Shown here one piece after another: positions 5,084 through 13,863 of a DNA stretch of 64,000 bases. The stretch spans positions 1 to 64,000 of the forward strand of contig NZ_FNQV01000004.1 of assembly GCF_900107735.1 (NCBI RefSeq), read 5' to 3'. A program made the position numbers and the translations under genes. Numbering within the stretch: the first letter of the stretch is position 1; each line of letters starts with the position of its first letter. Source of the stretch: Bowdeniella nasicola (lineage in GTDB: Bacteria; Actinomycetota; Actinomycetes; Actinomycetales; Actinomycetaceae). The notes beneath the pieces are model-generated. The model saw only the letters and a program-made list of their open reading frames with translations, was not told where the DNA came from and ran no database searches.

Positions 5084-5841
5084 AGCCAGGCGAGCCAGCT
5101 CTCGGGCAGAAGGGTATATCCGACGAAAGCCACCAGGTCGATCAGTGTGTGAGCAACGACGAGCGGCATGACGCGCCGCGTACGCCGGTAATACTCGGCA
5201 AAGACCACACCCATGACGACGTTGCCGATCCCCGGACCGATGCCCTGATAGAGATGATAGGTGCCGCGCAGCAGAGCTGACGCCGTAAGGATGGCCGGCA
5301 CTTTCCAGCCCATCTGCTCCAGGCGCTCATACAGGTAACCAACGGCGATGACCTCTTCCAGCACCGCGTTTTTCAGCGCCGCCAGGATCAAGACCGGTAC
5401 CGCCCACCAATATGACGGCAACCCCGCCGGCGAGACGTTCACGGTGATACCGATGAGCCGCCCCAGCAGGTAGAACCCGAGTCCCGGGATCCCGATGAGG
5501 GCGCCAAGCCCAATTCCGGCCAGCAGGTCACGCCCGGGACGACGACACTCGAATCCGATTCGGGCCAGTGCGCTCTTGCCGGAATCTGACAGGAAATACA
5601 GCGCTAGCACCACAGGCACGAGGGCGAAGCCAATCGCCAGCAGCTGGTAGGTCAGATCCAGATACGGGCGCGCGCTCAAGGACGTGTTCAACCCGGCGCT
5701 CTGCTGGCGCAGCGGCGTCGCAGCGGTCAGACGCGCGATGATATTGACGATGGAATAGATGCCCGATTGGCCGAGCGAGAGCCCAAGGACAATGAGGACT
5801 TCGGGCCCCAGGCGGCTCCGGCGCTCCCCTTGCTCGATCAC
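5080..5841 (-). CDS. CPBP-family intramembrane glutamic endopeptidase
   Basis: A 253-residue membrane protein of the CAAX protease/bacteriocin-processing (Abi) family. Motif 1 appears as AVLEEVIAVGYLYERL with the paired glutamates, motif 2 as GTYHLYQG with the histidine, and a later N/H position lies in VVAHTLIDL. About seven hydrophobic helices are predicted. Such proteins are thought to cleave substrates within the membrane; some protect against self-made bacteriocins. It starts with GTG at 5841, overlapping the CorA stop by 4 nt (GTGA), so it is the second gene of a corA-led operon. Confidence 0.85.
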   Translation of the reverse strand: MIEQGERRSRLGPEVLIVLGLSLGQSGIYSIVNIIARLTAATPLRQQSAGLNTSLSARPYLDLTYQLLAIGFALVPVVLALYFLSDSGKSALARIGFECRRPGRDLLAGIGLGALIGIPGLGFYLLGRLIGITVNVSPAGLPSYWWAVPVLILAALKNAVLEEVIAVGYLYERLEQMGWKVPAILTASALLRGTYHLYQGIGPGIGNVVMGVVFAEYYRRTRRVMPLVVAHTLIDLVAFVGYTLLPESWLAWL

Positions 5842-6839
5842 AGCCAGTCCTTTCGCTTCATGACGACGTAGACGCTGGCCGAGAGCCCCACAACAAGGAC
5901 AATCGAGGCGATGAGCCCGGCGGCATTACCTTCTCCCGGAAACGGCACGTTTTGTCCAAACCATCCGGTCACAAGCGTCGGGACCGCGATGATCGCGGCC
6001 CACGCCGCAAGCTTTTTCATCACCGTGTTCAGCCGCGAGTCCTGCAGCTGCAGATGAGTCTCCACGAGGTTTTGGATGACATCGCGCAGCGAATCGGTCC
6101 ACTCGCTCGCACGCAAGACGTGATCCATGAGGTCTTGGAACCAGGGATCGGGCCGGTCGGCGAACTCGTGCCGGATCAGGCCGAGCACCACCTCGCGCAT
6201 CGGCACCACGTAGCGCCGCAGCTTGGCCAGGTCCTTCCTGACCGCATAGGCCTTGGCCGAGAACTCGGGCCCAGGACCGCCCTCAGCAAACAGCTCGTCT
6301 TCGAGGTCTTCGAGATCACCGTCGATGAGCTGAATCGTCTCAAAGTGGCCATCCACGATGTAGTCAAACAGGACATGGACCAGAACACCGATGTCATCGG
6401 AGCTGCGAGCAGCCAGCTCTCGGTCCGCGTTGGCCATGATGCGCGGAATATCGATGTCCTCATCGAGCCGCACCGTCACGAGGCCATGATCGAGCAAGAA
6501 CCCCGAGACTCGCGAGGTTTGCAACCGGCCCGCTTCCCGGTCCTCGGCCCGGCTTTCCATATCGGTGGCGTAGACGACGAAGAAGAGCCGGCCATCGATC
6601 TCGGTGAGCTTGGGACGCTCATGGGGTGCGAGCGCGTCCTCGACCGTCGTGGGATCGAGCCCCAACTCGTCGGCGAGGTGGCCGAGCTGCTCGGGGCTCG
6701 GTGCCACGAGATCGATCCAGCACAGCGTGCTTGGGTCTTCCAGGGCGTGGCGGATCGTCGCCGGCTCCAGGTCGGTATCGACGGGCTCACCATCGATCCA
6801 GGTACGGGCGTGGATCGCGGCGGAAGTGGCGGGACGCAT
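5838..6839 (-). CDS. corA: CorA-like divalent cation transporter
   Basis: A 333-residue member of the CorA family, with a long acidic N-terminal cytoplasmic domain, a coiled helix (LRDVIQNLVETHLQLQDSRLN) and two C-terminal membrane helices. The pore signature that reads GMN in classical CorA is GWFGQNVPFPG here, that is GQN, a variant often seen in actinobacterial CorA-like proteins. It probably moves Mg2+, Co2+ or Zn2+; the substituted signature leaves selectivity open. The frame continues upstream to 7157, but the ATG at 6839 is the start because the family N-terminus begins there and a CACAAT -10 box precedes it by 7 nt. Divergent from the thiamine-binding gene with only 27 bp between. Confidence 0.82.
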   Translation of the reverse strand: MRPATSAAIHARTWIDGEPVDTDLEPATIRHALEDPSTLCWIDLVAPSPEQLGHLADELGLDPTTVEDALAPHERPKLTEIDGRLFFVVYATDMESRAEDREAGRLQTSRVSGFLLDHGLVTVRLDEDIDIPRIMANADRELAARSSDDIGVLVHVLFDYIVDGHFETIQLIDGDLEDLEDELFAEGGPGPEFSAKAYAVRKDLAKLRRYVVPMREVVLGLIRHEFADRPDPWFQDLMDHVLRASEWTDSLRDVIQNLVETHLQLQDSRLNTVMKKLAAWAAIIAVPTLVTGWFGQNVPFPGEGNAAGLIASIVLVVGLSASVYVVMKRKDWL

Positions 6840-6846
6840 GAAGACT

Positions 6847-6852
6847 ATTGTG
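6847..6852 (-). promoter_or_regulatory. -10 box CACAAT of the corA promoter (probably leaderless)
   Basis: CACAAT on the minus strand ends 7 nt before the corA ATG at 6839. It lies only 2 bp from the opposing -10 box of the divergent gene, so the two polymerases would compete for the same 27 bp. Confidence 0.4.
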
Positions 6853-6854
6853 CC

Positions 6855-6860
6855 TACAGT
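6855..6860 (+). promoter_or_regulatory. -10 box TACAGT of a probable leaderless promoter (thiamine-binding protein)
   Basis: TACAGT ends 6 nt before the ATG at 6867 and there is no leader room for a ribosome-binding site. Confidence 0.5.
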
Positions 6861-6866
6861 TGAGGC

Positions 6867-7175
6867 ATGCTTGTTGCTTTCTCTGTTGCCCCCTCCGGCT
6901 CCGCTGATGAATCCGGATCCGTGGCCAAGGCCGTCGCCGCCGCCGTCGAGGTCGTGCGTGCCTCCGGGCTTCCTAACCGCACCGACGCGATGTTCACGAC
7001 GATCGAGGGCGAATGGGATGAGGTCATGGATGTCGTGAGGCGCGCGACCGAGGCCGTCGGCGCCTACGGTTCTCGCGTCTCGCTCGTCCTGAAAGCCGAT
7101 ATTCGCCCCGGTTTCACCGGTGAGCTCGATGGCAAGGTCGAGCGCCTCGAGGCCCACCTCGCCGAGCGCGAATGA
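6867..7175 (+). CDS. MTH1187/YkoF-type thiamine-binding protein
   Basis: A 102-residue cytoplasmic protein of the MTH1187 (DUF77) family. It shows the typical pattern: [11 protein letters not shown] at the start, [18 protein letters not shown], then a segment that reads [17 protein letters not shown], and [16 protein letters not shown]. Proteins of this fold form ferredoxin-like oligomers that bind thiamine or related pyrimidines and may buffer or salvage the vitamin. It overlaps the downstream uracil-DNA glycosylase start by 4 nt (ATGA). Its role fits with the riboswitch-controlled thiamine transporter at 28.5-32.3 kb. Confidence 0.8.
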
Positions 7176-9069: not shown

Positions 9070-10602
9070 ATGAGCGAGACCGAAGACCAGCTCGCGCGCA
9101 AGAATGCCCGCCTCGCCCACGCCCTGTCCGCCGCCCGCCAGGAGCTTTCGAGCCTGCGCCAGGAGATCGACCGGCTCACCGCGCCCCCGCTCAGCTTTGG
9201 CACCTACCTGCGCACCGTCGACGCCCTCCAGCGCATCGTCGACATCTCCGCGGCGGGCCGCAAGATGCGCGTGGCCGTCTCCCAGCAGGTCCCGCTCGGC
9301 GGCCTGCAGGCCGGCACCGGCGTCATCCTCGATGACCACCTCTGCGTCATCGCCACCACCGAAGCCGAGGACACCGGCGATATCGTCGCCGTCGAACAGC
9401 GCCTGGATGACGACCACGTCCTCGTCATCGTGCGCGGCGAGGACAGCCGCGTCCTGCGCTTGGCCGGGGACCTCGCCCGCGAGCGCCTGCGCCTTGGCGA
9501 CTCACTGCTCGCCAATCTGCGCGACGGAATCGCGCTGCGCCGGGTGCTGCGCGCCGAGGTCGAGGACCTGCTGCTGGAGGAGGTACCGCACACGCCGTGG
9601 GAGGCAATCGGCGGGCTATCCGAGGCGATCGAACAGATCCGCGACGCCGTCGAACTGCCCGTCACCCACCCCGAACTCTTCACCGAACACCGCCTGCGCC
9701 CACCGAAGGGCGTGCTGCTCTACGGCCCGCCCGGCTGCGGCAAAACCCTCATCGCCAAGGCGATCGCCACCTCGCTGTCACGAACCGCGGGCGCCGACGC
9801 CTACTTCCTCAACATCAAGGGCCCCCAGCTGCTGGACAAGTACGTTGGCGAAACTGAGCGACGCATCCGTCTCATCTTCGCGCGGGCCCGCGACAAGGCC
9901 GCGCTCGGCCTGCCCGTCGTGATCTTTTTCGACGAGATGGAATCGCTCTTCCGCACGCGCGGTTCGGGGGTCTCCTCCGACGTCGAGACGACGGTCGTGC
10001 CGCAGCTACTCGCCGAGATCGATGGCGTCGAGGAATTGCGCAACGTGATCGTCATCGGTGCCTCCAACCGCGAGGACATGATCGATCCGGCAATCCTGCG
10101 CCCCGGCCGCCTCGACGTCAAGATCCGCATCGACCGACCAGATGAGGCCGGCAGCGCCGAGATCCTCGCCCGCTACCTCACCGCGGACCTGCCAATCGCC
10201 GAGGCCGAGATCGAGGCCGCCGGGGGCGTCGCCGAGGCCGTTGCCGCCATGCGCTCGGCCCTGCTGGCCGCCATATTCACCCGCGACGAGCACACCGCGC
10301 TGCTGACGGTACGCCGCCGCTCGGGGGCGACCGAGACGTGGCACCTCGCCGATCTCGTTTCGGGCGCCATGATCGCCACGATCGTTGATCGCGCAAAGAC
10401 GGCGGCGATCAAGACCTACCTCGAGACCGGCACGCGCGGGCTCAGCACGGATCACCTCCGTCACGCGCTGCAGCGCGAGCTTGCCGACAGCGCGGATCTG
10501 CCGGGGGCGAGCGACCCGGAGGAGTGGGCCCGCGTCATCGGGCGGGGCCGCGGCGGCGATCCCATCGTCGCGGTGATCCCCGTGGCCGGTGGTGACGCAT
10601 GA
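9070..10602 (+). CDS. arc: Proteasome-forming-type AAA ATPase ARC/Mpa, lacking the C-terminal docking motif
   Basis: A 510-residue ring ATPase that recognises pupylated proteins and unfolds them. An N-terminal coiled coil (residues 1-38, ARLAHALSAARQELSSLRQE) would bind Pup; tandem OB-type domains follow; then the AAA module with Walker A GPPGCGKT at 219-226, Walker B VVIFFDE near 283-289 and ILRPGRLD. Proteasome-bearing species end this protein with Gly-Gln-Tyr-Leu, which docks into the 20S core; here the tail is VIPVAGGDA, with no Tyr near the end. Start ATG 9070 follows AAAGGCGA. It overlaps dop by 4 nt. First gene of the arc-dop-pup-pafA operon. Confidence 0.95.
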   Translation: MSETEDQLARKNARLAHALSAARQELSSLRQEIDRLTAPPLSFGTYLRTVDALQRIVDISAAGRKMRVAVSQQVPLGGLQAGTGVILDDHLCVIATTEAEDTGDIVAVEQRLDDDHVLVIVRGEDSRVLRLAGDLARERLRLGDSLLANLRDGIALRRVLRAEVEDLLLEEVPHTPWEAIGGLSEAIEQIRDAVELPVTHPELFTEHRLRPPKGVLLYGPPGCGKTLIAKAIATSLSRTAGADAYFLNIKGPQLLDKYVGETERRIRLIFARARDKAALGLPVVIFFDEMESLFRTRGSGVSSDVETTVVPQLLAEIDGVEELRNVIVIGASNREDMIDPAILRPGRLDVKIRIDRPDEAGSAEILARYLTADLPIAEAEIEAAGGVAEAVAAMRSALLAAIFTRDEHTALLTVRRRSGATETWHLADLVSGAMIATIVDRAKTAAIKTYLETGTRGLSTDHLRHALQRELADSADLPGASDPEEWARVIGRGRGGDPIVAVIPVAGGDA

Positions 10603-12266
10603 TCTCGGTCTCGCGCATCCAGGGCGTGGAAACCGAATACGCCCTGCTCGATCCCGCTGATCCGGACGCCGATCCGGAGGAATTGGCGACCAAACTGCTC
10701 TTCACCTACGCGCGCGCCCTGGCCGCCGAGGGCCAGCCGAGCCAACTCCACGTCCCCGCGGCCACCGGCCGGGCACTCGAGGCGGGGGCGGGCACGCGCT
10801 TTGACTACTCGGGCGAAGCCCCGGGATCCGACGCTCGCGGTTTCACCCACACGAACCTGCCGGCCGAGGCCCGCACCAACGAAGGCGCCGGCGCGGCGCT
10901 GACATCGGCCGCCACCCGCTGGGTCACGCGCCTGACCCCCTTTGAGGCGCACTACTACCGCGGCTCGGCGATCCACGGCCCGAACGGTGCGCGTCTGTAC
11001 GTCGACCACTCCCACCCCGAATACGCCGCGCCCGAGGCCCTCGGTCCGCGAGAGGCCATGCGTTATGACCTCGCCGGCGATCGCCTCATGCAACGTGCTG
11101 CCGCCGATCTGCGCTGCGTGCTCGTGAAGAACAACGTCGACGGCAAGGGCCAAGCCTGGGGCGCCCACGAGTCCTACCTCATGTCGCGCGCCACCAGCTG
11201 GGACCTCATCACGGCAACCCTCCTGCCCTTCCTCGTCACCCGGCCCATCATCGGAGGCGCGGGCCGCGTCGGTATCGGGCGCCGCAGCGAAGAACCCGGC
11301 TTCCAGATCTTCGCGCGCGCGGACTTCATCGAGCAGGAAACCTCCCTGTACACCACCCGCGAGCGCCCCATCATCAACACCCGCGACGAACCGCACGCGA
11401 GCGGCAACCGGTGGCGCCGCCTACACGTCATCACCGCCGATTCCTCCGTTCTCGCGCCGACGATCCTGCTGCGCCTGGGAAGCCTTTCCGCCGTCCTATC
11501 CCTCATCGAGAACCACCCCGAGGACGCGGCCGACCTCGCCGAACGCTTCCGCCTCGCCGATCCGGTCGCCGCCGTGCGCACCTTCAGCTATGACCCGACG
11601 CTGTCGGCCACCGCGCCGCTGGCCGCCGGCGGGCAGGCGAGCGCCCTGCAGATCCAGCGCGCCTTCCTTGCCGCCTGCCGCGCGCATCGCTGCGATGCGG
11701 AAACCCGCGAGGTGCTCGACCTGTGGTCCGAGGCCCTCGACGCCCTTGCGGTCGGCCCGCACGCCGCCGCCAGCCTCGTGCAGTGGTGCGCGAAGTACGA
11801 GCTGCTGCAGCGCCTACGCGCGAAGTATTCCTGCGGCTGGGACGATCCGCGCATCGCGGCCGCCGACCTGCAATTCGCGATGCTCGATCCGGCCGCTTCG
11901 CTCGCCGCCGCCCTGCAGCGCGCCGGCACGATCCGCCAGAACATCGACGACGAGGAGATCGCGCGGGCCGAGCTCGCCGCCCCTGAGAACACGCGCGCCG
12001 GCGGCCGCGCCGCCTTCCTTGCCGCCTATCCGGACCAGATCTGGGCCGCGAGCTGGACCTCCCTCGTCGTGGACTCGGCGCGACCCCACCTGCTGCGCGT
12101 CACCCTGTCCGATCCGCACCACCCCACCGCCGCCGAAGCCCGCGCCGCGATCGCCGCGACCGATAGCGCGCTCGCCGCACTGACGCACCTGGGCCTCGAT
12201 GTCCCACCCGATCCACACACCGAGGGCTGGGACGAAGGCATCTACCATGAACCCAAGGAGGAGTAA
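10599..12266 (+). CDS. dop: Pup deamidase/depupylase Dop
   Basis: A 555-residue carboxylate-amine ligase-fold enzyme. It deamidates the C-terminal Gln of Pup to Glu, making it ready for ligation, and also removes Pup from substrates. The N-terminal RIQGVETEYALL carries the nucleotide/metal-binding glutamates and RLYVDHSHPEYAAPE carries the catalytic Asp. Between them lies the extra segment of about 35 residues (around 50-85, ending SDARGF) that distinguishes Dop (the Dop loop) from PafA. Further signatures are NVDGKGQAWGAHESYL and NTRDEPHASGNRWRRLH. Coupled to arc by ATGA and to pup by TAATG. Confidence 0.95.
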   Translation: MISVSRIQGVETEYALLDPADPDADPEELATKLLFTYARALAAEGQPSQLHVPAATGRALEAGAGTRFDYSGEAPGSDARGFTHTNLPAEARTNEGAGAALTSAATRWVTRLTPFEAHYYRGSAIHGPNGARLYVDHSHPEYAAPEALGPREAMRYDLAGDRLMQRAAADLRCVLVKNNVDGKGQAWGAHESYLMSRATSWDLITATLLPFLVTRPIIGGAGRVGIGRRSEEPGFQIFARADFIEQETSLYTTRERPIINTRDEPHASGNRWRRLHVITADSSVLAPTILLRLGSLSAVLSLIENHPEDAADLAERFRLADPVAAVRTFSYDPTLSATAPLAAGGQASALQIQRAFLAACRAHRCDAETREVLDLWSEALDALAVGPHAAASLVQWCAKYELLQRLRAKYSCGWDDPRIAAADLQFAMLDPAASLAAALQRAGTIRQNIDDEEIARAELAAPENTRAGGRAAFLAAYPDQIWAASWTSLVVDSARPHLLRVTLSDPHHPTAAEARAAIAATDSALAALTHLGLDVPPDPHTEGWDEGIYHEPKEE

Positions 12267-12451
12267 TGGCCAAGCGCATCCAGAAAGAAACCACCCACGA
12301 GGACGCGGCCGAACCCATCGAGCCGCCCACGCCCGCCGGTCCTAACCCCACGGCCCAGGGCCTCGATCAAGTCCTGGCCGATATCGACGACGTCCTTGAG
12401 ATAAACGCCCTGAGCTTCGTCCAAGGATTCGTGCAAAAGGGCGGCCAGTGA
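12266..12451 (+). CDS. pup: Prokaryotic ubiquitin-like protein Pup
   Basis: A 61-residue disordered tag protein that is attached through its C-terminal residue to lysines of target proteins. The C-terminal half (LDQVLADIDDVLEINALSF, then VQGFVQKGGQ) matches the region that folds onto the ARC coiled coil, and the protein ends in Gly-Gly-Gln, so it needs deamidation by Dop before use. The N-terminal half is Pro/Glu-rich. It starts within the dop stop codon (TAATG, after AAGGAGGAG) and its stop overlaps the pafA start (GTGA). Confidence 0.95.
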   Translation: MAKRIQKETTHEDAAEPIEPPTPAGPNPTAQGLDQVLADIDDVLEINALSFVQGFVQKGGQ

Positions 12452-13863
12452 GCCCTGCCGGGCCGCTCACCCGTGCCTGCGGGATCGAAACTGAATACGG
12501 CGTGGCGAGCGCGCACCTGGCGCGGGTCCCCGACGATAGCGCCCCGCCCCTTGCCGCCGAGGCCGCGGTCAACGAGATTTTCCGCCACACGCCGCAGCGC
12601 CACCGCAGCGCGCACCACTTCTTAGCCAACGGCTCCCGCCTCTACGTCGACATCGGCTCCCACCCCGAATACGCCGGCGCCGAATGCCGCTACCTATCCG
12701 ACGTGCTCGCCCAGGACCGCGCGGGCGACGCCATCCTCGCCGACATGCTCGCCACCGCCAACGCTGACCTCGCCACGCGAGAGCCCGCGGCGCGCATCCA
12801 CCTGCTGAAATCAAACGCCGATGCCCACGGCAACACCTTCGGCTGCCACGAGAACTACCAGATTCGCCGTAGCCCCGAGCTGCCCACCGCCGGATTCGTC
12901 GGCTTCCTCGCCGCCCGCCAAATCCTCACCGGCGCGGGCCTGCTGCCCTTCCCCGGCGAGGTCGCCCACACCGAGCGCCCCACCTCGGCGCTCGCCCCGC
13001 TGCTGTTTTCCGCCCGCGCACCCTTCATGACAGCACCCACCTCCGCGGACCCCACCCGCGGCCGCGCCTTCATCAATACCCGCGACGAACCCCACGCGGA
13101 CAAGACCCGCTGGCGCCGCCTGCACATCATCGCGGGCGACGCGGCCAGGTGTGAGGCGACGACGGCCGTCAAGGTGCTGCTCGCCGACGCCCTGCTCGCC
13201 CTGATCGAGGCCGGCGGCTGGGACCTGGTCGAATGCGAGCTCGCCGATCCGATCGCCGCCACGCGGGCCTGGAACCTGGACCCGAACTCGCCCGCCGAGC
13301 GCACCGGCGGCCGCTCGCCCATCACCTGCCCCGAGCTCCTCACGCTCGTGTGCGACCGGATCGCGCCCACCCTGCCCGACGATCCGCTCACCGCCCGTAC
13401 CTTCGATCTCGCGCGCCGTGGCATTGCGGCCCTCGAATCGGGCGATTACTCGAGCGTGCAAACCGAGCTCGATTGGGCGATCAAGGCCACCCTCGCGCGC
13501 CACGTCGCCGCCTCGGCGCCCGAGGGCTACGCCGACCCGCGCGTGCTGCGCACGATGCTTGCCTTCCACGACATCTCCGATACCACGGGCCTCGCCGCGG
13601 GCCTGCGCCGCGCGGGCCTCATGGCTAGCTGGGTCAGCCCCGAAGAGGTCGCCGCCGCCCGCACCACCCCGCCCACGGGCACCCGCGCCCGCATCCGCGG
13701 CGCCTTCGTCGCGGCGTGCGCAGCGGCGGGCCGCTCCGCCTCCGTCGGCTGGGCCCACATCCGCCTCGACTCCCCACCACGCCCCCAGATCGATCTACCC
13801 GATCCGCTCTCCGATGACGACGCCCAAGCCGCAGCCCTCATCGCGGAGCTCACCGAAAGGTAG
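12448..13863 (+). CDS. pafA: Pup--protein ligase PafA
   Basis: A 471-residue ligase that uses ATP to join the C-terminal Glu of deamidated Pup to substrate lysines. The N-terminal GIETEYGVASAH and RLYVDIGSHPEYAGAE (catalytic Asp) blocks are intact, followed by SNADAHGNTFGCHENYQI and NTRDEPHADKTRWRRLHII. It lacks the Dop-specific loop, which sets it apart from the paralogue upstream. It starts with GTG at 12448, overlapping the pup stop. In Mycobacterium prcB and prcA lie between pup and pafA; here the two genes overlap, so there is no room for them. Confidence 0.95.
   Translation: MSPAGPLTRACGIETEYGVASAHLARVPDDSAPPLAAEAAVNEIFRHTPQRHRSAHHFLANGSRLYVDIGSHPEYAGAECRYLSDVLAQDRAGDAILADMLATANADLATREPAARIHLLKSNADAHGNTFGCHENYQIRRSPELPTAGFVGFLAARQILTGAGLLPFPGEVAHTERPTSALAPLLFSARAPFMTAPTSADPTRGRAFINTRDEPHADKTRWRRLHIIAGDAARCEATTAVKVLLADALLALIEAGGWDLVECELADPIAATRAWNLDPNSPAERTGGRSPITCPELLTLVCDRIAPTLPDDPLTARTFDLARRGIAALESGDYSSVQTELDWAIKATLARHVAASAPEGYADPRVLRTMLAFHDISDTTGLAAGLRRAGLMASWVSPEEVAAARTTPPTGTRARIRGAFVAACAAAGRSASVGWAHIRLDSPPRPQIDLPDPLSDDDAQAAALIAELTER

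Follow-up and report, generated by a model that had tools for sequence, protein, structure and literature searches.

We analyzed a window of 64,000 nucleotides (the whole stretch considered here) from Bowdeniella nasicola, positions 1 to 64,000 of the forward strand of contig NZ_FNQV01000004.1 in RefSeq assembly GCF_900107735.1. The genome, G000, belongs to the Actinomycetaceae, has 2.53 Mb in 29 contigs and is 99.58% complete. Four consecutive genes of this window encode a pupylation cassette, designated B, which turned out to be one of two diverged cassettes in this bacterium and to carry a ligase with a distinctive signature. Its genes, and the two codons that mark the signature (positions in the window), are the following:

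9070..10602, plus strand: arc-B, proteasomal-type AAA ATPase with two OB domains and an AAA domain, 510 aa
10599..12266, plus strand: dop-B, Pup deamidase/depupylase-like protein, 555 aa
12266..12451, plus strand: pup-B, Pup, 61 aa, C-terminus SFVQGFVQKGGQ
12448..13863, plus strand: pafA-B, B-type Pup ligase, 471 aa
13048..13050, plus strand: codon of Asp201 of PafA-B, aligned with Ala182 in the alpha-loop of Mycobacterium smegmatis PafA; B signature
13747..13749, plus strand: codon of Gly434 of PafA-B, aligned with Asp418 of M. smegmatis PafA

All four genes overlap, with junctions ATGA (arc/dop), TAATG (dop/pup) and GTGA (pup/pafA), as a first-pass annotation of this DNA had proposed and as gene coordinates and junction reads bear out. 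The expected Pfam domains were present in the four products. ARC-B matched TIGR03689 with 699 bits, above the curated NCBIfam cut-off, and Pup-B, whose C-terminus QKGGQ is of the GGQ/GGE type, was also above the cut-off of its model, TIGR03687. The best NCBIfam models for Dop-B (TIGR03688, 430 bits) and PafA-B (TIGR03686, 373 bits) gave scores below the curated values of 492 and 551, respectively; the Pfam Pup_ligase family was far above cut-off for both. Dop-B carries LYVDHSHPEY, which holds the VDHxHPE motif, and DARGF in the Dop loop. The cassette is thus a complete Pup/PafA/Dop/ARC set with unbroken genes.

No match to the proteasome subunit profile PF00227 was obtained in the Bowdeniella genome, nor in any of the 151 Actinomycetaceae genomes sampled, in agreement with the lack of prcBA noted in the first-pass annotation. 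As a control, the same profile gave matches in 10 of 14 named genomes, and also in Escherichia coli and Bacillus subtilis, which have HslV-type proteases. A hidden 20S particle elsewhere in the genome was therefore rejected, as was HslV as a partner, given that the search was empty even though its control detects HslV carriers. In an order-wide sample of 297 genomes, PF00227 was found in 166, with none of the 24 Actinomycetaceae among them, and Pup in 267. The docking tail is also absent, as had been claimed: ARC-B ends in PIVAVIPVAGGDA, with VIPVAGGDA as its last residues and without GQYL. Comparison of ARC C-termini indicated that the tail and the 20S genes go together, since GQYL was present in 32 of the 37 named loci with prcBA and in none of the 12 without it (one ends in GTYL), in a tally where 31 of 80 named loci were unscorable, several genera carry excess weight and the search for prcBA covered the fetched stretch only. 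The five prcBA-bearing loci without GQYL, exceptions to this rule, all come from Brevibacterium (L092, L093, L095, L096 and L150). Within the family, GQYL was not found in any of the 56 ARCs from the fetched loci. Five of these 56 (L083, L085, L089, L046 and L066) retain a final Tyr-Leu, as DYL or GYL, which is perhaps a relic of the docking tail. An absent proteasome and a tail-less ARC are ordinary for this family and already in print, proteasome-less actinobacteria being described as keeping an ARC that lacks the docking motif (PMC3511204).

The Bowdeniella genome holds a second full cassette, A, on the minus strand of contig C2, which was located through an ARC match at 129739-131208:

G000:C2:129706-131259, minus strand: ARC-A
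G000:C2:128151-129692, minus strand: Dop-A
G000:C2:127962-128141, minus strand: Pup-A
G000:C2:126583-127965, minus strand: PafA-A

In total, the genome gave two ARCs, four Pup_ligase matches and two Pup matches. The two sets are far apart in sequence, with identities of 55% for ARC, 38.9% for Dop and 41.8% for PafA, and 61% across the last 36 residues of the Pups. ARC-A ends in RVTDVATAE, also without the GQYL tail, so that an intact prcBA accompanied by a QYL-tailed ARC paralogue, which the first-pass annotation had named as decisive against its proposal, was looked for and not found in this genome. That annotation had taken the locus for proteasome-less pupylation, a view that holds as far as the missing 20S and the tail-less ARC are concerned; it had overlooked the second cassette, and the window contains one of two systems. 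Its further suggestion that the overlaps imply fixed stoichiometry is unsupported, cassette A of the same genome having a single overlap, between pup and pafA. A lone, Corynebacterium-type proteasome-less cassette with fixed stoichiometry would fit the lack of a 20S gene and of a docking tail as well as the overlapping genes, but with two cassettes in the genome, and with A in the conserved locus, "single" is already refuted and this explanation is very improbable. B as a degenerate duplicate was also rejected, both sets being unbroken in Bowdeniella.

The two cassettes differ in genomic context. The gene before cassette A is, as read from its sequence, a putative tRNA methyltransferase, trmI-like, and another neighbour is taken, likewise from its sequence, to be a putative FKBP-like lipoprotein. 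Two Pups (PF05639) were detected in 23 of the 151 family genomes, and gene maps gave one A-type and one B-type locus in each of them. Each of the 23 has a homologue of the trmI-like gene next to its A locus (for G082, on one of its two contig pieces), and none has it next to its B locus, so the position of A is conserved across the family and the B set of the window sits elsewhere. The neighbours of B in Bowdeniella (Suc_Fer-like, uracil-DNA-glycosylase-like and ApbA) were rejected as partners, because none of them adjoins B in other genera. Outside the family two Pups are rare: in the order-wide sample they were found in 3 of 24 Actinomycetaceae and in 2 of 273 other genomes, one of which, G159, is 6% contaminated.

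Phylogenies indicate that B is a divergent lineage of its own, apart from A. The 23 B rows, together with G030, fell on one side of a branch in the ARC tree (support 100/98), and together with an orphan ligase of G037 in the PafA tree (98/95). A quick Dop tree grouped 22 B rows and G030 (support 99), and adding 35 outgroup rows to a quick PafA tree left 22 B rows in one group (SH-aLRT 94). Several long branches lie near the A/B split, and B may have arisen either within the family or earlier. As a group, the B ARCs keep (at 90% or more) 104 of 119 columns conserved in A and outgroup ARCs; by pattern, the VDHxHPE-type motif was found in 17/21 B Dops and DARG in 11/21. The orphan is a third Pup-ligase-like protein of Actinobaculum massiliense (G037), 544 aa, at L064:6187-7821 (G037:C3:152276-153637), which lacks the NTRDEPH segment; the 14 kb fetched with it showed no gene for Pup, Dop or ARC. 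G030 (L083, contig C1) is a small genome of 1.5 Mb with one cassette, an ARC ending in NNDYL and no trmI-like gene in the stretch fetched around it; in the trees its ARC and Dop fall on the B side, and its ligase has a SADTT loop and Asn at position 418, both B-like. Long open frames had raised the suspicion of a Dop-PafA fusion in genus g21; this was rejected, as gene maps show separate open reading frames, and the copies concerned are A loci.

The B ligases are set apart by a signature, given here in the numbering of M. smegmatis PafA. Position 182 is Asp in 23/23 B rows and Ala in 31/31 A and 10/10 outgroup rows; position 418 is Asp in the same 31 and 10, and in the 22 readable B rows it is Ser (9), Gly (8), Thr (4) or Asp (1), with a gap in the remaining one. 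Loci L064, L083, L084 and L035 and rows shorter than 350 aa were left out of these counts. Read separately, L083 (G030) is B-like at the 182 loop and at 418, L084 (G028) has an A-like alpha-loop and L064, the orphan ligase, has Asn at the position of 182. The PafA of the window, with Asp at 182 and Gly at 418, lacks the canonical Ala182/Asp418 pair, which, as judged from sequence, lowers its membership in canonical PafA and not its putative ligase function. Among 81 columns conserved at 97% in A and outgroup ligases, B keeps 50 at a level of at least 90%, and those almost wholly lost are 58, 182, 306 and 418, the change at 58 being conservative (Val to Ile or Leu). Positions 58, 182 and 418 are listed among those that separate PafA from Dop (Table 1 of PMC7947786), and the same source regards the alpha-loop, which holds 182, as important for the interaction with targets and as a factor that discriminates ligase from depupylase.

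This pattern raises the question of whether PafA-B has drifted towards Dop-like chemistry, as a weak, reversible or dual-activity enzyme. The Dop counterparts of 182 and 418 are Glu217 and Ser450, so with an acidic residue at the former and mostly Ser, Gly or Thr at the latter the B ligases are in part Dop-like, and three of the four lost columns (58, with its conservative change, 182 and 418) are ligase/depupylase discriminators. Dop-B itself has Glu217 in only 1 of 21 rows, the A rows having Glu in 21/32 and Gln in 11/32. In AF2 models, the helical turn of the alpha-loop is absent from PafA-B and spans three residues in the A copy of B. nasicola. Against such a drift, the catalytic loop of the B ligases remains PafA-like (inserted residue, Gly59, HPE, Ala65), with Asp57, Gly59 and His61-Pro-Glu kept in 23/23. 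The predicted structure of the window PafA (mean pLDDT 90.4) has the PafA-Pup complex 4bjr as its best fold match (TM 0.86-0.87), ahead of Dop chains (0.81-0.82, with one chain at 0.70), though PafA 4b0t scores 0.80. Moreover, substitutions in the alpha-loop alone do not switch M. smegmatis Dop, according to PMC7947786. On this evidence we regard the drift as improbable.

Identities between genera suggest that B did not always descend with its host. Among genera g4, g5 (G004) and g11 (G043), ARC-A proteins are 44-52% identical and ARC-B proteins 74-83%, with values of 43-52% and 62-70% for PafA-A and PafA-B, so B seems to have moved between genera, at least among these three. Other pairs are mixed, and not all share this relation: ARC-B is more distant than ARC-A in G000-G014 (62% for A, 57% for B) and in G004-G117 (58% and 48%), and PafA-B is equally or more distant than PafA-A in G000-G037, G005-G004, G014-G117, G000-G014 and G004-G117.

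The B locus co-occurs with an operon built around an amidinotransferase and arginine deiminase. In nine two-Pup genomes, from genera g2, g21, g22 and g34, an amidinotransferase gene lies at no more than 10 kb from arc at the B locus. Its product, used as operon marker, is AGAT-like, with 285 bits to human AGAT (1jdx) and a cysteine in the aligned GG[GA].HC segment. The operon includes genes for arginine deiminase, ornithine carbamoyltransferase, an amino-acid kinase that we take to be carbamate kinase (Pfam gives AA_kinase), AGAT, EamA and MFS transporters and a TetR regulator, with creatininase in some cases. A search of the 151 family genomes gave AGAT matches in 39, one of which (G049, 27% identity) was excluded from the test. 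The remaining 38 were distributed as 22 of 23 two-Pup genomes and 16 of 128 others, the sole two-Pup genome without a match being G082, which is 76% complete. Fisher's exact test, which ignores kinship, gave 2.9e-15, and an exact test stratified by genus gave P = 2.2e-4; for Cas1, taken as a control, the figures were 16/23 and 71/128 (Fisher 0.26, stratified P = 0.53). B is located between the transporter and TetR genes of the operon in the three g21 genomes that have two Pups; in one genome, G020, it shares the strand of the operon and is separated by 44 bases from the preceding MFS gene and by 15 from the TetR gene that follows. In g22, B adjoins the operon in the other orientation. The operon of the Bowdeniella genome is at G000:C5:140590-147837 (L172:8591-15838), and further operon loci are L173-L191, L052 and L058.

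AGAT running in reverse would convert guanidinoacetate and ornithine into arginine, which would feed the ATP-yielding deiminase pathway. If its AGAT works in that direction, the operon might let its host live on guanidino compounds. The link between B and AGAT could also be a matter of hitch-hiking, both being accessory islands that genomes of one host niche keep or exchange without any functional connection, an alternative to which we give only a little less than an even chance. Of the 128 genomes that lack a second Pup, 16 carry AGAT; 14 of the 23 two-Pup genomes showed no AGAT in the B locus fetched, and full-length AGAT matches are 83-100% identical across genera, which may mean recent spread. 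On the other side, the association holds within genera, Cas1 shows no such pattern, B lacks AGAT only in the incomplete G082 and, in g21, B is nested in the operon.

Taken from sequence comparisons, these results lead us to favor, by a narrow margin over doubt, the reading of B as a parallel pupylation-unfolding system with targets that are partly its own, acting without degradation by a 20S particle; its co-occurrence with genes handling arginine-like compounds hints at a tagging system with targets of its own. Dop-B would deamidate PupB and remove it from its targets, and PafA-B would attach PupB to lysine residues of proteins that differ in part from the A targets. ARC-B would then pull apart or unfold the tagged proteins for release and recycling, and not for 20S degradation, as has been proposed for ferritin in Corynebacterium glutamicum. 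Proteins that belong to the guanidino-compound/arginine operon, or that respond to it, would be the most likely clients. A stronger version, which we put forward tentatively, as something rather less probable than its opposite, would have B as a largely insulated second Pup code, with PafA-B, its loop for target recognition rewired, marking enzymes or transporters tied to that operon and ARC-B remodeling or extracting them without proteolysis.

A number of observations weigh against a separate system. The arginines R130, R193 and R204 of substrate-binding site 2 (PMC10465538) are all kept in the window PafA, and in 17, 20 and 16 of the 23 B rows, which argues against target binding having changed wholesale, and the difference in the AF2 models of the alpha-loop is weak. 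At a threshold of 75%, one Pup column alone, and no ARC column, separates the A and B groups; the QKGGQ end shared by both Pups of Bowdeniella makes cross-talk possible, and insulation at the unfoldase is not indicated by the ARC columns. As for the operon, in Bowdeniella AGAT (contig C5) and B (contig C12) are unlinked. Sixteen genomes with AGAT have a single Pup: in the 14 that were fetched the ligases are A-type, with Asp418 in 14/14 and Ala182 in the 13 readable, and of the other two G028 has an A-like loop and G030 a B-like one, so no B-type ligase was seen in 15 genomes with AGAT (the 14 and G028). In six single-Pup genomes without AGAT, the alpha-loop could be read in a single case, with Ala, and position 418 in two, both with Asp; the others may hold a B-like ligase. 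The argument for transfer is weakened in that ARC-B is closer than ARC-A also in G000-G037 (55% for A, 70% for B), G005-G004 (50% and 63%) and G014-G117 (59% and 66%), so that part of the signal may reflect an ARC-B that evolves more slowly. Nor is the B set always kept whole: dop is missing from the B cassettes of G123 and G062, and Dop-B of G123 lies away from the cassette and, unlike the rest of it, in the subclade of the window. In addition, the PafA of G030 is at the base of the A side in trees despite its B-like alpha-loop.

Several of these points would suit a simpler alternative, namely that B is a redundant second copy of A, kept for dosage or condition-specific expression and with no separate targets. 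The intact catalytic-loop residues in 23/23 B ligases, the retained site-2 arginines of the window PafA, the common last residues of both Pups and the lack of a group-specific column in ARC-B are all compatible with it, as is the conservation of the B ARCs, which have the R[P/A]GRLD motif and Walker B in 23/23 and GPPGCGKT in 20/23. Redundancy is harder to reconcile with ligases that are 42% identical, an alpha-loop change fixed across the group, Asp418 missing from 21 of the 22 readable B ligases, a patchy distribution and the association with AGAT, so we consider it unlikely, while giving it appreciably more weight than the drift of PafA-B towards Dop.

With respect to known systems, duplicated pupylation has precedents. 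According to PMC3511204, Leptospirillum ferrooxidans has two sequence-divergent copies of the whole system, L1 and L2, and parts of it are duplicated in Saccharopolyspora erythraea and Salinispora tropica; a literature search for a second pupylation system in Actinomycetaceae found none beyond the duplications in that report. Bowdeniella resembles Leptospirillum (placed in Nitrospirae) in having two divergent copies of the entire system per genome. As described in that source, L1 and L2 share an identical genetic context and the Pup of L2 lacks the terminal GGE, whereas the Bowdeniella sets lie in different contexts, have Pups that both terminate in GGQ, and occur in a genome where no 20S was found. 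Like the system of C. glutamicum, the cassette of the window has four components, with pup directly before pafA, no 20S genes and an ARC without GQYL; it differs in that Bowdeniella has two full systems, that the window PafA has Asp182 and no Asp418, that its arc, dop, pup and pafA all overlap and that its locus is not shared with A cassettes. ARC/Mpa, Pup, Dop and PafA are homologous to those of the mycobacterial Mpa-20S system, from which the genome studied here differs in that no PrcBA was found, the GQYL tail is absent and there is a second divergent set. The operon amidinotransferase, similar to human AGAT in sequence and in the aligned cysteine, differs from it in residing with arginine deiminase, ornithine carbamoyltransferase, a kinase, transporters and sometimes creatininase. 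Unfolding without degradation is not a new proposal, having been put forward for ferritin in C. glutamicum (PMC8223512); one ferritin-family match (PF00210) was found in the Bowdeniella genome.

The role of pupylation without a proteasome is largely open, with C. glutamicum ferritin as a worked example (PMC8223512). The two-Pup genomes offer an internal comparison, in which the same cell has no 20S and two ligases distinguished by defined positions of the alpha-loop, so that it becomes directly testable how PafA chooses its targets and how ARC is used without degradation, and the co-occurrence with the AGAT operon points to candidate clients of B. If the stronger version, with a largely insulated second Pup code, is true, one cell would run two ubiquitin-like tagging pathways with different clients.

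A few further observations were made along the way. In G028, dop of the sole cassette is split over three open reading frames (L084:7819-9396), through frameshifts or as a pseudogene, and the end of pafA is in a further one; arc and pup appear whole. Two contigs of metagenome-assembled genomes labelled Bifidobacterium breve (L142 and L158) carry Pup-proteasome loci with mycobacterial-like Pup ends; L158 is placed with Mycobacterium in the PafA tree, and both are probably misbinned. In the window, ARAGORN called a tRNA-Pro (ggg) at 6575-6674, inside a minus-strand open reading frame at 5838-7157, which is probably a false call.

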